Shown in pieces: positions 1 through 9,793 of a stretch of DNA of 64,000 nucleotides. A model generated the notes under the pieces. The model was given only the letters and a program-made list of their open reading frames with translations, ran no database searches and was not told the DNA's origin. Made by a program: the position numbers and the translations under genes. The stretch's first letter is position 1; each line of letters begins with the position of its first letter. The DNA is taken from assembly GCF_003234795.2 (NCBI RefSeq), contig NZ_CP126268.1, forward strand, positions 2,852,001 to 2,916,000, read 5' to 3'. The DNA comes from Curtobacterium sp. MCLR17_032 (GTDB lineage: Bacteria > Actinomycetota > Actinomycetes > Actinomycetales > Microbacteriaceae).

Positions 1-26
1 GTGTTCATGTCCTGGAGGTCGCTCAT
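1..26 (-). CDS. N-terminal end of an unknown gene running off the left edge
   Basis: An ATG at 26-24 overlaps the TGA of the HTH gene at 23-265 as ATGA, and the reading frame continues leftwards out of the window, starting MSDLQDMN. Only eight codons are visible, so no function can be given. The overlap says it is translated with the HTH gene, which makes that gene the first of a leftward operon of the integrated element. Confidence 0.5.
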
Positions 27-265
27 CCCGTTGCCTCGAGTGAGGGGATGGGGAGCCAGTTGGCGTAGTTCTCGTTGAGGACTTTGCCGATGGCGATGAG
101 TTCGAGCATCCGGAATCCGGGTCCTCGGCCGGCTAGGGACCGGGTGAGGGTTGTTCGGGCGATTCCGGTAGCGTTGGCGAGCTGCATCTTGTTGATGCCT
201 GCTTGCTCCATCGAGGACGTGACGCGTTTGCCGATCTCTTCGTTGATCCACGTCGCGGTGTCCAT
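23..265 (-). CDS. small helix-turn-helix protein, first gene of the leftward operon (Cro/repressor-like)
   Basis: This 80-residue protein has an XRE-type helix-turn-helix at about residues 15-55 (MQLANATGIARTTLTRSLAG), typical of phage Cro or repressor proteins that bind palindromic operators. The ATG at 265 is 6 nt after a -10 box (TAGAGT, 272-277), so the mRNA is probably leaderless. The spacer of that promoter contains the palindrome AGTGACCGTTTGGTCACT, and the stop codon overlaps the start of a further leftward gene. It is divergent from the HTH gene at 396-650. Being at the head of an operon, it looks more like an early or Cro gene than the resident repressor, but the roles could be reversed. 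Confidence 0.75.
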   Translation of the reverse strand: MDTATWINEEIGKRVTSSMEQAGINKMQLANATGIARTTLTRSLAGRGPGFRMLELIAIGKVLNENYANWLPIPSLEATG

Positions 266-270
266 ACGGC

Positions 271-300
271 AACTCTAGTGACCGTTTGGTCACTTTGCAA
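271..300 (-). promoter_or_regulatory. leftward promoter with operator palindrome in its spacer
   Basis: Reading the minus strand, a -35 box TTGCAA (300-295) is followed by 17 bp and a -10 box TAGAGT (277-272). The spacer is filled by the inverted repeat AGTGACC-GTTT-GGTCACT (277-294, 7-bp perfect arms). Fifteen bases of it (277-291) recur at 3485-3499 in front of the integrase operon. A repressor bound here would block polymerase. Confidence 0.7.
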
Positions 301-358
301 CACGGCTTGTCCGCATTTTGGGGTACAAAAAGGTGGACAGAAAGACCCGTCTGTTCAC

Positions 359-388
359 TTGCGCGTTGTCCAGTATGGGCCATATAGT
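359..388 (+). promoter_or_regulatory. rightward promoter of the second HTH gene
   Basis: A -35 box TTGCGC (359-364), an 18-bp spacer and a -10 box TATAGT (383-388) would start transcription at about 395-396, exactly on the GTG at 396. The upstream in-frame ATG (375) and GTG (387) lie before or within the -10, so they are unlikely starts. Confidence 0.55.
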
Positions 389-395
389 GTCCATC

Positions 396-650
396 GTGAC
401 CAACGAGACCCCTGCTGAGATCGACCCCTACACCGCCGCGTTCGCTGCCGAGCTGCGCGCCGAGCGTGGACGCAAGCAGATCGGGTTCGACGAGATCGCC
501 GCGAAGACCGGCATCAACAAGCGCACCCTGTTCCGCCTCTTCGACGGCGAGCGGGACCTGCGGGCCAAGCACCTGATCCTCATCGCAGACGCGCTCGGCA
601 TCGACGCGCAGGAGATCATCACCCGGGTTGAGGCGACGGTCGGCGAGTAG
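396..650 (+). CDS. small XRE-type HTH regulator, candidate resident repressor
   Basis: This 84-residue protein has an XRE helix-turn-helix at about residues 18-70 (FDEIAAKTGINKRTLFRLF). It starts at GTG 396, chosen because the promoter places the transcript start there; ATG 375 would overlap the -10 box. It is a one-gene transcription unit closed by a strong terminator at 667-703 and is divergent from the leftward early gene. A stand-alone regulator between an early operon and an integrase operon that share an operator is what a lysogeny repressor would look like, but DNA binding is inferred only from the fold. Confidence 0.75.
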   Translation: MTNETPAEIDPYTAAFAAELRAERGRKQIGFDEIAAKTGINKRTLFRLFDGERDLRAKHLILIADALGIDAQEIITRVEATVGE

Positions 651-666
651 CGCCCTCCCCCAACGA

Positions 667-703
667 AAGAAGCCCCCCGGCTGGTTAGGCCGGGGGGCTT
701 CTT
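667..703. terminator. bidirectional terminator between convergent genes
   Basis: Perfect 15-bp arms (AAGAAGCCCCCCGGC at 667-681, its complement at 689-703) enclose a 7-nt loop. The outer A/T pairs supply a short T-run on both strands. It separates the rightward HTH gene (ends 650) from the leftward SOS-box gene (ends 712). Confidence 0.85.
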
Positions 704-711
704 CGTGTGGC

Positions 712-894
712 TCAGCAGCTGACTGCGGTGTCCACTGCGTCGAACAGGGTGCACATGCTGACTCCGAGTCGCCGTGCTTCCCATGCGAGTTCCGTGACGC
801 TTGGGTTGTCGTGGTCACTCAGTGTCATGCCGGCGCGTTCGGCTGCGATGCCGATGATGACGCCTTGGTCGTGTGCTTGGTCCAGGGTCCCCAC
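712..894 (-). CDS. 60-residue protein under an SOS box, unknown function
   Basis: I do not recognise this family. The product is 60 residues, has a possible helix-turn-helix-like stretch near the C-terminus (ELAWEARRLGVSMCTLFDAV) and strong GC bias at third codon positions, which supports coding. It starts at GTG 894 behind an AGAGAGGA ribosome site, with a leader of about 30 nt from a promoter overlapped by a perfect LexA-type box at 928-943. It lies just past the 3' end of the integrase gene on the same strand. Damage-induced expression beside an integrase suggests an antirepressor, an excisionase-type directionality factor or another induction trigger; the sequence does not decide between them. 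Confidence 0.65.
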   Translation of the reverse strand: MGTLDQAHDQGVIIGIAAERAGMTLSDHDNPSVTELAWEARRLGVSMCTLFDAVDTAVSC

Positions 895-927
895 TTGCTG
901 ATCCTCTCTCGAGTCCTTGTGATGCGT

Positions 928-959
928 TCGAACATACGTTCGACTACCGACAGTGGCAA
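928..959 (-). promoter_or_regulatory. LexA SOS box overlapping a promoter
   Basis: TCGAACATACGTTCGA at 928-943 is a perfect match to the actinobacterial SOS consensus TCGAAC-N4-GTTCGA. On the minus strand a -35 box TTGCCA (959-954), 17 bp and a -10 box TATGTT (936-931) place the LexA site over the -10. Transcription would start near 924 and read into the 60-codon gene at 894. Confidence 0.85.
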
Positions 960-981
960 CCCCCTTCGCGTGGGTGGATAG

Positions 982-2226
982 TCACGACTCGATCTCGGGC
1001 AGCGCACCAGCCATCGCCACCTGCACCGCCAGCGCCGCGGCTGTCAGGTTGTCGGGCGACAGGTGGCCGTAGCGGTCGACAGTGGTGGTGATCGACTCGT
1101 GGCCGAGCCGCCGCTGGATGACCGGCAGGGGTGTGCCACCGTTGATCAACCATGATGCATGCGTGTGCCGGAGGTCGTGGATGCGGGGCTCCTTATGGAT
1201 CCGGTCCCCCACCGAGGCGGGCTCCTGATGCCACTCGTGACCGCCCCGGTTCGGGACCCAGTGCGGCTTGTGGTCCTTCACGATGTCGAATGCCGGCCGT
1301 CCGTTGGCGAGGTTCCGTGCGGGTGCCCAAACCTCCTTGTGGAACGTCTGCTGCAGGATGGCGTTGCCGTGCCGGTTGGTGAACACGAGCTCCCCGCGCT
1401 GCTCGACGAGCGGCCGCAGGAGGGTGATCAGTCCGGGTGGCAGGGAGATCGTGCGCTTGGACCGGCTGGTCTTCGGTGCGCCCAGGTAGCGGCCCTTCGC
1501 GATGCTGTCCTTCCATGCTCGGGACACGCGGACGACGCCTGCCTCGAGGTCGAAGTCGCCGGGGCGTAGCGCGGTCGCTTCGGACCAGCGCATGCCGGTG
1601 CCGGCGAGGGTCTGCACGAGCGGCTGCCAGTACGGCGGGATGAAGGACAGCAGCCGGGTGTACTCGTCGCCGGACAGGAACGTCATCTCCCGCGACTCGG
1701 ACGCGGGCATGTTGGTGCCCTCGCAGGGGTTCCGGTCGACGACACCACGCTGCACGGCGTGCTGGAACATGGCGTAGAGGAACCCGTGGCGGTTCTTGAT
1801 CGTCTTCGCGCCGAGCGGTCGGGGCAGCTTCCCGTCGACCTCACGGGTCGGCGCGGCCTGTTCGTTGATCCACCCCGCGATGACTTCCGGGGTCACCATG
1901 TTCAGCGGCAGGTGACCCATCCACGGGCCGATCGACCGTCGCATGAACATCCGGTAGTGGTCGAGCGTCTTCCCTTCCACACCCGACTTCGACGCGATGT
2001 ACGTGTCCGCGTACTCGGCCACGGTCGGCGTCGTCGGCCCGACGTCGCGCTTCACCCACGTCAGGGCGAACTCAGGGCCGTGCTGACGGACCAGACCGGC
2101 CCACTCACGGGCACGCGCCTCATCGCCGAATGCGAGGGTCTTAGACGCCCCGTCGAGTCGGTAGCGGACGTCGTAGGAGACGCCCTTGCTGGTCGGGCGG
2201 ATGCGGAGACTAGCGGCGTGGGTCAT
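982..2226 (-). CDS. tyrosine recombinase / phage integrase
   Basis: A 414-residue site-specific recombinase that would integrate or excise the element at the neighbouring tRNA-Ser. The catalytic set is complete: Arg213 (GTGMRWSEA), His350-x-x-Arg353 (IHDLRHTHASW), His376 (RRLGHE) and nucleophile Tyr386 (TTVDRYGHL). An N-terminal arm-binding region and a core-binding SAM-like domain precede the catalytic domain. I chose ATG 2226 because it overlaps the preceding stop codon as TGATG; an upstream in-frame ATG at 2247 would run into that gene. It is the last of seven tightly linked minus-strand genes whose promoter lies at about 3478-3499, so its expression is probably tied to the shared operator. 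Confidence 0.95.
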   Translation of the reverse strand: MTHAASLRIRPTSKGVSYDVRYRLDGASKTLAFGDEARAREWAGLVRQHGPEFALTWVKRDVGPTTPTVAEYADTYIASKSGVEGKTLDHYRMFMRRSIGPWMGHLPLNMVTPEVIAGWINEQAAPTREVDGKLPRPLGAKTIKNRHGFLYAMFQHAVQRGVVDRNPCEGTNMPASESREMTFLSGDEYTRLLSFIPPYWQPLVQTLAGTGMRWSEATALRPGDFDLEAGVVRVSRAWKDSIAKGRYLGAPKTSRSKRTISLPPGLITLLRPLVEQRGELVFTNRHGNAILQQTFHKEVWAPARNLANGRPAFDIVKDHKPHWVPNRGGHEWHQEPASVGDRIHKEPRIHDLRHTHASWLINGGTPLPVIQRRLGHESITTTVDRYGHLSPDNLTAAALAVQVAMAGALPEIES

Positions 2227-3603: not shown

Positions 3604-3625
3604 CTGCTGATCAGGGGTTCCTACG

Positions 3626-3710
3626 CGGAGGGTGTGGGATTCGAACCCACGAGACATCTCTGCCCACCTGTTTTCAAGACAGGCTCCATCGGCCACTCGG
3701 ACAACCCTCC
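3626..3710 (-). tRNA. tRNA-Ser (anticodon UGA)
   Basis: An 85-nt class II tRNA. The acceptor arms GGAGGGT/ACCCTCC pair (3704-3710 with 3627-3633) and the discriminator is G. The anticodon loop CTTGAAA reads UGA (plus-strand 3674-3676). A long variable arm follows, and the T-loop is GTTCGAATC. No CCA is encoded. The 3' end faces the integrase element, the usual geometry for integration into a tRNA gene. A -10-like TAGACT lies upstream at 3756-3751. Confidence 0.97.
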
Positions 3711-8206: not shown

Positions 8207-9298
8207 TCAGTACAGCAGCTGCAGGGTGTCGGAGTCGCCGTTGCGCCCGACCGTGCGGAAGCCTACGCGTTCGTAGAGGATCCGGGCACCGGTGTTGCCG
8301 TCCTCGACGCTCAGGCTGATCCCCGGCCAGCCCGCGCTCCGGCCGGCGGCGACGAGCCGGGCGAGCAGGGCCGAGCCGACACCACGGCCGCGCGCTCGGG
8401 CGTCGACGGCGAGGGTGAGCTCGGGGACGTCCTCGGCGACGAAGCCGTAGCCCGGGTCGCTCGCGGGCAGGTGCACGGCCCAGGCGACGCCGAGCGGCCC
8501 GTCGGGGTCGGAGGCCACGACGCCCAGGTCGGCGGGGCGACGGTCGGTCGGGTCGTCCGCGCTCCGGTCCGGTTCGTCCGTGGTCCGGTCCGGGTCGAAG
8601 GCGACGAAGTAGTGCGCGAACTCGGGCCGGTCGAGGTCGGCGTCGGTGAACCGCTCGGCCGACCAGTTCATCGCGTCGAGGCTCGCACGGCGCAGCAGGG
8701 GCAGGTCCTCCCGGGTGGCCGGCCGGTAGGTCACGCCGTCGACCACGTCCGGGAAGGCGTCGTCGGCGGTGCCGGTCAGCCGGGCCTCGCACACCGTCGG
8801 CTCGTCGTCGGGGATGTTCGCCACCGCGGCGAAGCGGCCCTCGGGGTCGACGCGGCTGAGGAGCACGCGGGAGATCCCGTCGAGTTCCGCGACCTGCTCG
8901 TCCGACAGCGCGTCGATGACCAGGCGCCGGGCGGTCCGGACGTGGCCGGGCGCCGCGGCGACGATGTGGTCGAAGCCGGCGTCGGTGAGCCGGACGTCAG
9001 TGGCACGGCGGTCCTCGGTCGAGGGGCACCGGGCGACGAGCCCGCGCTTCTCGAGCCGGGACACGACGTGCGACAACCGAGGCAACGAGGCGTTCGTCGC
9101 CGAGGCCAGGACCGACATCCGGAGCGTGTGGAGCTCGGTCTCGGACAGCATCGCGATGACCATGTAGTCGAACATCGTCAGGTCGGCGTCGCGCTGCAGC
9201 TGGTGGTCGAGCGCTGCCGGCAGGAGTTCCATGACGGCGACGAACCCCATCCACGCCCGGAGCTGCTCACGGGAGAGCCAGGGGGTGTCGTCGGTCAT
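8207..9298 (-). CDS. MarR-family regulator fused to a GNAT acetyltransferase
   Basis: 363 residues with two domains. Residues about 10-150 are a MarR winged helix (RLSHVVSRLEKRGLVARCPSTEDRRATDVRLTD is spread over the recognition helix and wing, about residues 73-105). Residues about 190-363 are a GNAT fold with the acetyl-CoA loop ARARGRGVGSALLARL and the late motif NTGARILYERVGFR. A linker near residue 230 is rich in Asp and Arg. The fusion suggests a regulator able to acetylate a small molecule or protein. The start follows a TAGGAT -10 box by 6 nt. Substrate unknown. Confidence 0.9.
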   Translation of the reverse strand: MTDDTPWLSREQLRAWMGFVAVMELLPAALDHQLQRDADLTMFDYMVIAMLSETELHTLRMSVLASATNASLPRLSHVVSRLEKRGLVARCPSTEDRRATDVRLTDAGFDHIVAAAPGHVRTARRLVIDALSDEQVAELDGISRVLLSRVDPEGRFAAVANIPDDEPTVCEARLTGTADDAFPDVVDGVTYRPATREDLPLLRRASLDAMNWSAERFTDADLDRPEFAHYFVAFDPDRTTDEPDRSADDPTDRRPADLGVVASDPDGPLGVAWAVHLPASDPGYGFVAEDVPELTLAVDARARGRGVGSALLARLVAAGRSAGWPGISLSVEDGNTGARILYERVGFRTVGRNGDSDTLQLLY

Positions 9299-9307
9299 GC
9301 CCTCATC

Positions 9308-9793
9308 CTAGGGAGAGGTTGTCCCTGCAACCACAGGTTGGTCCGACCGACGCCGAGCCGTGACCGCGCCCACCGCCAGGGCGATCACCACGACGGCCAC
9401 CAGGACCCCCTCGACCACGAGCAACCGCGTCGTGTAGTCGAACGGCAACACGGTGTCGTTCTTCGTGCCGTGTGCCTTCGCCGCGATCTCCGGCAGCACC
9501 ACCAGGGCCAGGACGCTACCGAGGACGACGGCCGCCTGCACCACGACGAGCACCCACGTGCGGAGGGCCCGGCCGGCCCGCCGGAGCCCCATGCCGACGG
9601 CCAGGACGAACGGGGACAGGATCGCGTCGTGCAGCACGACGGCGCCGAGGAGCCAGGTCGCCAGCCCACCGATCCGGTTCGGCCGGACGGTGGTCACGAG
9701 GACCCAGGCGCCGAACGCCAGGACCAGCACGCCCAGGACGACCAGCACGATGCGGGCCGTGCGGACCCGGTTGTCGACGACGACGGCGCTCAT
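9308..9793 (-). CDS. four-TM membrane protein coupled to the molybdopterin oxidoreductase
   Basis: 161 residues with four hydrophobic segments (about 13-35, 43-68, 80-102 and 125-146). ATG 9793 overlaps the stop of the molybdopterin oxidoreductase gene as ATGA, so they are translationally coupled. It lacks the residues needed to call it a haem protein with confidence, though His55 within TM2 (VVLHDAI) is noteworthy. It could help anchor or supply electrons to the oxidoreductase; that is inference from the overlap. Confidence 0.8.
   Translation of the reverse strand: MSAVVVDNRVRTARIVLVVLGVLVLAFGAWVLVTTVRPNRIGGLATWLLGAVVLHDAILSPFVLAVGMGLRRAGRALRTWVLVVVQAAVVLGSVLALVVLPEIAAKAHGTKNDTVLPFDYTTRLLVVEGVLVAVVVIALAVGAVTARRRSDQPVVAGTTSP

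Follow-up and report, generated by a model that had tools for sequence, protein, structure and literature searches.

Genes and signals at the right end of the prophage

The stretch of DNA analysed here, to which we refer as the window, comprises 64,000 nucleotides of the Curtobacterium sp. MCLR17_032 chromosome and contains the last 3.65 kb of a 39,964-bp prophage bounded by two att repeats (Table 1). Reading leftward from the att core within the window, we find small genes, the integrase gene (minus strand), a LexA box, a 60-codon gene that we call ORF60 (minus), a hairpin, the repressor gene (plus), a cro-like gene (minus) and an HTH_17 gene (minus). Beyond the latter lie early genes, including those for a YqaJ recombinase and a Dam methylase, together with a RusA-like gene that stays below the Pfam cut-off.

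Table 1. Features at the right end of the prophage, in window coordinates
Feature	Position	Strand	Basis
Excisionase-like HTH_17 gene, start (80 aa)	1..26, running left out of the window (L013:15784-16026)	-	
Cro-like HTH protein, 80 aa, divergent from the repressor	23..265	-	HTH_26, 21.8 bits
Immunity repressor, 91 aa, XRE/Cro-C1 HTH only	375..650	+	HTH_3, 6e-8
Hairpin separating ORF60 from the convergent repressor gene	~665..704	.	Folding; nearly unchanged in G035
ORF60, candidate LexA-controlled antirepressor, 60 aa	712..894	-	Box, codon constraint, G035 copy
Shine-Dalgarno-like AGAGGA before the ORF60 GTG	902..907	-	Identical in the G035 prophage
Perfect LexA (SOS) box TCGAACGTATGTTCGA	928..943	-	Contains the promoter -10
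Sigma-70-type promoter TTGCCA-17-TATGTT	931..959	-	Promoter scan
Tyrosine integrase, 421 aa	982..2247	-	Phage_integrase 1.6e-22; phrog_1 5.5e-72
att core, 26 bp, 3' end of tRNA-Ser(TGA)	3625..3650	.	Direct repeat at chromosome 2815687

The repressor is related, by tblastn, to the annotated immunity repressors of the Propionibacterium phages E1, Anatole and E6 and of the Arthrobacter phages Sarge and Maja. The best Pfam match of the Cro-like protein (HTH_26) falls just below the cut-off of 22 bits, and the gene directly behind it matches Pfam HTH_17 at E 3.4e-11, as would be expected of an excisionase-like protein. A preliminary description of this DNA had proposed that both small HTH proteins lack a LexA-like protease domain, and Pfam and PHROG searches detected no protease domain in the repressor (searched as a 110-aa frame) or in the Cro-like protein.

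ORF60 immediately follows the integrase gene, shares its strand and converges toward the repressor gene. The hairpin that separates the two convergent genes folds with -39.5 kcal/mol (z -5.1) on the ORF60 strand and -41.1 kcal/mol on the other, and is likely a bidirectional terminator; a terminator scan does not list it, presumably because its T-tract is poor. ORF60 is the only complete gene between the promoter and this strong hairpin.

The LexA box and its promoter

The sequence TCGAACATACGTTCGA at 928-943 fits the actinobacterial LexA motif tCGAAC-N4-GNNCGa, as given in PMC9380542, with no mismatches. The motif search, allowing up to three mismatches, returned four matches where 0.41 were expected, two of the four being the two strands of this single site, and none of 100 shuffles reached four. 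The box contains the -10 element of TTGCCA-17-TATGTT, the sole promoter-like site in window 200-1100 (shuffle mean 0.1), so that the originally described overlap between a perfect SOS box and this promoter holds.

The site is also rare in the host. The chromosome, one contig of 3,710,209 bp in which the window spans 2852001-2916000, has six occurrences of the 6+6 palindrome TCGAACN4GTTCGA and none of the reversed control pattern. Within the prophage, 928-943 is the only perfect LexA site, and three further sites have two mismatches. Downstream of two of the other five chromosomal sites there is a gene that, from its translation read by eye, we take to be imuA'/imuB. The host has one LexA_DNA_bind match (PF01726, 80.2 bits), that is, lexA, and upstream of it, in a gap common with a divergent gene, lies the box TCGAACGTATGTTCGG, which is identical to the prophage box (minus strand) at 15 of 16 positions and thus differs from it by one base.

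ORF60 as a gene and its copies within the genus

ORF60 starts with GTG. A second species of the genus (G035) carries the integrase gene, box, ORF60, hairpin, repressor and cro-like genes in identical order, with ORF60 93% and the integrase 91% identical and the box unchanged. The eight substitutions that separate the two ORF60 copies comprise five synonymous codons and three nonsynonymous changes, the latter against 6.2 expected if randomly placed (P = 0.009). Judging from this pattern of codon changes, ORF60 is a coding gene evolving under protein-level constraint. Its start, ribosome-binding site and frame are all intact, and the stretch from the box to the start codon is identical in the two species.

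Of 66 genomes of the genus, only two, that of the window and G035, have ORF60 or its integrase at the thresholds used. The IMG/VR contig L007, whose features and spacing match, appears to be the G035 prophage itself and no independent case. In G035 there is also a distant ORF60 homolog of 50 aa (40% identity), encoded at the opposite end of the prophage, ~46 kb away, with the nearest box of up to two mismatches ~930 bp distant. Homologs lying far from integrases in unrelated genomes had been named beforehand as evidence against the proposed induction switch; the 50-aa homolog points in that direction. The 50-aa relative (L010:1510-1662; G035 chromosome ~2568335-2568487, minus) sits near the attL end and falls just outside the coordinates of the IMG/VR contig, as placed here.

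Searched against annotated phages, ORF60 gave no match with E <= 1, and it has no family match in Pfam and PHROGs, including no excisionase family such as HTH_17. A search of genome contigs with ORF60 and a two-integrase alignment returned nothing in a collection where the window's own and very near genomes are possibly absent. At the family level, ORF60 matched in 20 of 398 genomes, the window's own included. The 19 other matches (E 6e-4 to 0.01) fall in stop-to-stop frames of 104-654 aa, longer than 200 aa in 17 cases, as compared with 89 aa for the window's own frame. We regard them as weak domain-level matches.

Phages with related repressors

Phages were picked by similarity to the repressor of the window or of Sarge, ignoring boxes, which yielded 19 loci (9 + 10). 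The first search gave 16 records, nine of which were fetched, the remaining seven being Anatole or second records of fetched phages. The second gave 47, ten of which were fetched, with seven phages already included; second records, five close kin of Judy, Streptococcus/Moineauvirus and Pseudomonas records and one unannotated record were omitted. Two loci were left out of the tally: Mbo4, where the box fronts a metallopeptidase-integrase pair instead, and JustASigh, where the matching gene is an HTH gene adjoining the annotated repressor.

In 15 of the 17 tallied loci, the first 400 bp past the repressor stop (0-400 bp) contain a LexA-like box with up to two mismatches; the figure is 15 of 19 if the two loci left out are scored as misses. 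This slot holds 15 boxes in 6,817 positions against 6 in 78,717 outside it, a ~29-fold density (Fisher p 1e-12), and after removal of near-duplicates (10 of 12 loci) 10 in 4,812 against 2 in 55,711 (p 6e-10), both p-values being descriptive because the slot was defined once the first loci were known. Five of the 15 boxes (E1, E6, Sarge, Bauer and BrayBeast) have one mismatch, the other ten have two, and none is perfect. The slot is without a box of up to two mismatches in Maja, whose best site has three, and in ctl617. As far as these genomes tell, a LexA-like box beside a protease-less repressor is a recurrent feature of phages with this related repressor type.

Behind the box, 12 of the 15 loci have a short convergent ORF of 41-78 codons, often unannotated. 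The annotated ones are those of Sarge and Bauer (41 aa each), ArV2 (42 aa), and Zucker and Shoya (61 aa each). The others are found in Hestia (42 aa), Judy, RootBeer and Eileen (49 aa each), BrayBeast (46 aa), MargaretKali (78 aa; the printed DNA of Kumotta is the same) and the Rhodococcus phage ReT1v-1 (44 aa), and are missing from public annotation in all seven named phages. A core like TVRELGELAELHGLTLLDVL is common to the Arthrobacter small-protein set. In leave-one-out profile tests, Judy and BrayBeast were recovered (none of 2000 shuffles scored as high), and E1 and ReT1v-1 were not. Several Arthrobacter phages also have an annotated 'excise' gene behind cro.

In E1 and E6, the annotated gene 29 follows the box on the repressor's strand and is not convergent. 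Right behind the one-mismatch box of both phages there is, in addition, an unannotated convergent frame of 67 aa (L242:3076-3279 and L250:3076-3279), which runs ~140 nt antisense into the repressor gene. Its likeness to the Arthrobacter family is insignificant, with 164 of 2000 shuffles scoring as high.

Phages selected by integrase or by box

As a negative set, eight phages were chosen by integrase similarity alone, out of 24 matches listed from 522 records: Efra2, phiT46-1, Samman98, Phistory, Suscepit, Anekin, Ardmore and prophiT48-1. The 60,762 bases fetched contain no box with zero or one mismatch and seven scattered sites with two. From this comparison, the arrangement goes with this type of repressor and is not a trait of actinophages generally.

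Exact scans of IMG/VR found the 16-mer in 57 contigs and TCGAACRTRTGTTCGA in at least 120. The matches listed in the two scans yielded a box-selected set of 137 distinct stretches, the window included, 72 of them high-GC. Eight of the 137 have the box at a distance of 0-500 bp past an XRE stop, where 2.46 would be expected from random positions in the same loci (~3-fold enrichment): the window, L101 (the same as G035), L066, L123, L137, L166, L071 and the low-GC L068. The order of integrase, box, small ORF and convergent repressor is repeated in L066/L081, which represent a single phage and have an additional ORF separating integrase from box, in L123, whose integrase is a contig-edge fragment, and in L137; the small ORFs of these phages look different in sequence. 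The slot of L166 holds a small HTH_17-like protein (E 0.0016, below the Pfam cut-off), and its upstream DNA is too short to reveal an integrase. A scan with the reversed pattern found 39 contigs and is a poor control for actinophages, since only 3 of the 33 distinct ones are high-GC. The XRE and integrase profiles applied to the box-selected set were built from few seeds and miss genes; an HTH-like gene beside the L090 box, for instance, was missed by the XRE profile and read by eye.

The boxes of other IMG/VR contigs adjoin many kinds of genes. In L090, L174 and L200, an ATG inside the perfect box opens an ImmA-like metallopeptidase frame, assigned to Peptidase_M78 above the Pfam cut-off in L090 and L174 and by eye in L200. 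In the Rhodococcus phage Mbo4 (L245:153-648), a perfect box is followed by an annotated metallopeptidase gene (Peptidase_M78 E 0.005, below the cut-off) and then by the integrase. An integrase follows the metallopeptidase in L174 and L200, as in Mbo4. In L071, the start of an integrase frame (8424-9431; Phage_integrase E 2.2e-11) overlaps a perfect LexA box, which suggests direct SOS control of an integrase.

What ORF60 resembles

A profile built from 16 repressor- and cro-like XRE proteins gave ORF60 9.7 bits, a score that none of 2000 shuffles reached, the best being 9.4. The 50-aa relative scored 11.8 bits (best shuffle 4.8) with the last part of the fold, by our reading helices 4-5; this protein (P0001) also matches Pfam HTH_26 at positions 33-59 (E 0.013, below the cut-off), whereas ORF60 has no Pfam HTH match at E <= 10. 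Against the same profile, the small proteins of Zucker, Shoya and Maja reached 15.0, 12.7 and 17.3 bits, respectively, and those of Sarge, Bauer, Hestia and ArV2 at most 1.9, the latter being tied to the former through their common core.

Three profiles were tried in all. ORF60 is not clearly a member of the Arthrobacter gene-31 family, whose profile gave 3.9 bits, with 20 of 2000 shuffles as high, and a core-only HMM gave 9.1 bits, which no shuffle of 2000 reached, aligning residues 15-27 where the segment 31-52 was expected. AlphaFold, run on two sequences, modelled ORF60 as three helices with a pLDDT of 56.7, and the best Foldseek match of this model had E 2.3 (none at E <= 0.001), so that we dropped structural inference from it. 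The low-GC viral contig L041 proved to carry an ordinary XRE gene, from which it became clearer what portion of the HTH fold is similar to ORF60.

Taken together, these comparisons suggest that the small proteins are repressor-like proteins that have lost the DNA-reading helices, which for ORF60 is a hint only, because the family profiles align a different segment and its model is of low confidence. Reading ORF60 as a repressor mimic on account of its weak Cro/C1 resemblance is speculative.

Proposed role of ORF60

ORF60 is probably the SOS trigger of the prophage, that is, a LexA-controlled antirepressor. The release of a small protein by the SOS response is the best reading because the box recurs beside protease-less repressors, usually fronting a small convergent ORF. 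The preliminary description had regarded LexA release of this protein as a possible induction switch, acting as antirepressor or as directionality factor; the recurrence in phages with related repressors supports the switch and, of the two roles, the antirepressor is favoured and the directionality factor disfavoured.

In the lysogen, host LexA bound at the -10 of the ORF60 promoter would keep this promoter off, and the 91-aa repressor would hold the early promoter of the cro-like gene off. Upon DNA damage, activated RecA would promote the self-cleavage of LexA, and a short transcript, terminated at the hairpin, would be translated into the 60-aa protein. This protein would then bind its presumed target, the repressor, and remove it from its operators, freeing the expression of cro, the excisionase-like gene and the early genes. 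The most speculative part is the mode of binding, in which ORF60 would present a Cro/C1-like surface, but no functional recognition helix, and form mixed dimers with the repressor that cannot hold DNA. In its general form, we put forward only tentatively, as a possibility that is rather doubtful, that actinophages with short protease-less repressors share a box-driven, fast-diverging convergent microprotein, derived from a Cro/C1 fold by loss of the recognition helix, which disarms the repressor by mixed dimerisation and of which ORF60 would be one, with ImmA-type proteases at LexA boxes as a second solution.

The convergent arrangement itself would allow the SOS transcript to act by antisense or transcriptional interference on the repressor gene, with the small ORF mattering little. 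In the Arthrobacter phages examined the transcripts must overlap, since the small ORF ends inside the 3' end of the repressor gene, and the sequences of the small ORFs are diverse. In the prophage, however, the two genes are set apart by a highly stable hairpin, ORF60 is under protein-level constraint and the genes of Zucker, Shoya and Maja score 12.7-17.3 bits against the XRE profile, all of which renders this explanation unlikely. Alternatively, ORF60 could assist the integrase in excision upon DNA damage, as a partner protein or recombination directionality factor; its gene immediately follows that of the integrase on one strand, and the small protein in the L166 slot is HTH_17-like. We consider this very unlikely, as such a role is unnecessary given the separate HTH_17 excisionase candidate behind the cro-like gene, a place where several Arthrobacter phages have 'excise', and ORF60 matches no excisionase family.

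ORF60 might also have an accessory SOS function that has nothing to do with induction, for example as a division inhibitor or a host-takeover peptide, in line with the many kinds of genes near LexA boxes in other IMG/VR contigs; the specific recurrence of the box in the slot beside the repressor, in phages selected by their repressor, makes this quite unlikely. Even though the existence of only two copies in the genus and the lack of a family match could reflect a real box whose gene has decayed and no longer has a function, the intact start, ribosome-binding site and frame, the constraint (P 0.009) and the unchanged box-to-start stretch between two species speak against decay, which we regard as highly improbable.

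Relation to known systems

LexA-controlled small antirepressors paired with non-cleavable repressors have a precedent in enterobacterial phages. According to PMC3121763, Tum of phage 186, GfoA/GftA of the Gifsy prophages and AntC of N15 combine a LexA-repressed promoter, a small protein and a non-cleavable HTH repressor, as proposed for ORF60, following the logic that a phage borrows LexA because its repressor cannot cut itself. The Gifsy antirepressor frame starts with GUG, as ORF60 does with GTG; however, it forms a separate unit behind a dinI homologue, whereas ORF60 adjoins the repressor gene, convergent with it and alone before the hairpin. Having no Pfam or PHROG family match, ORF60 seems unrelated in sequence to these proteins.

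The closest likenesses in arrangement are Sarge gene 31, Bauer gene 42, ArV2 gp33, Zucker gene 41, Shoya gene 38 and Maja gene 31, all short and convergent with a related repressor. A LexA-like box with one or two mismatches precedes five of the six, the box of Maja gene 31 having three. Contrary to ORF60, these Arthrobacter genes overlap the 3' end of the repressor gene.

ImmA is known to inactivate repressors. Genes of the ImmA/IrrE type (Peptidase_M78) lie at or behind a perfect LexA box in L090, L174 and Mbo4, as ORF60 does, but ORF60 is far too small for such a protein and has no HExxH-type motif.

For the proposed mode of action, a likeness can be drawn to SinI from Bacillus subtilis, a small protein that has surface residues in common with its repressor and disrupts the DNA-binding assembly (PMC3163267). 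SinI pairs with the separate C-terminal helices of SinR and is under Spo0A control, whereas the box of ORF60 is that of LexA and its mimicry is putative.

LexA control of prophage genes has been measured in an actinobacterium: in Streptomyces venezuelae, genes of a predicted prophage cluster rank with the LexA targets that mitomycin C induces most strongly (PMC9380542). The prophage Samy of Streptomyces ambofaciens, on the other hand, is reported in PMC11302927 as most likely SOS-independent. In the open-access literature we found no description of LexA-controlled antirepressors in actinophages. What is known is, thus, the LexA-antirepressor logic of the enterobacterial phages, and what we did not find described are these proteins, their convergent place and their recurrence in Arthrobacter, Propionibacterium and Rhodococcus phages. 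ORF60 would offer an answer to how temperate actinophages with tiny protease-less repressors could sense DNA damage. The analysis names sequenced phages with the same slot, such as Sarge, Bauer, Hestia and Judy, and draws attention to short ORFs, absent from current annotations, that follow LexA-like boxes.

Start codons within the box

An ATG inside the LexA box of the window opens a second frame of 36 aa (MFERITR...; 825-935, minus) that overlaps ORF60, with two nonsynonymous and no synonymous changes between the window and G035. Starting from the in-box ATG, gene 31 of Sarge would be lengthened in frame to 52 aa. Since an in-box ATG opens the metallopeptidase frames of L090, L174 and L200 and extends gene 31 of Sarge, some phages may initiate leaderless translation at the SOS box.
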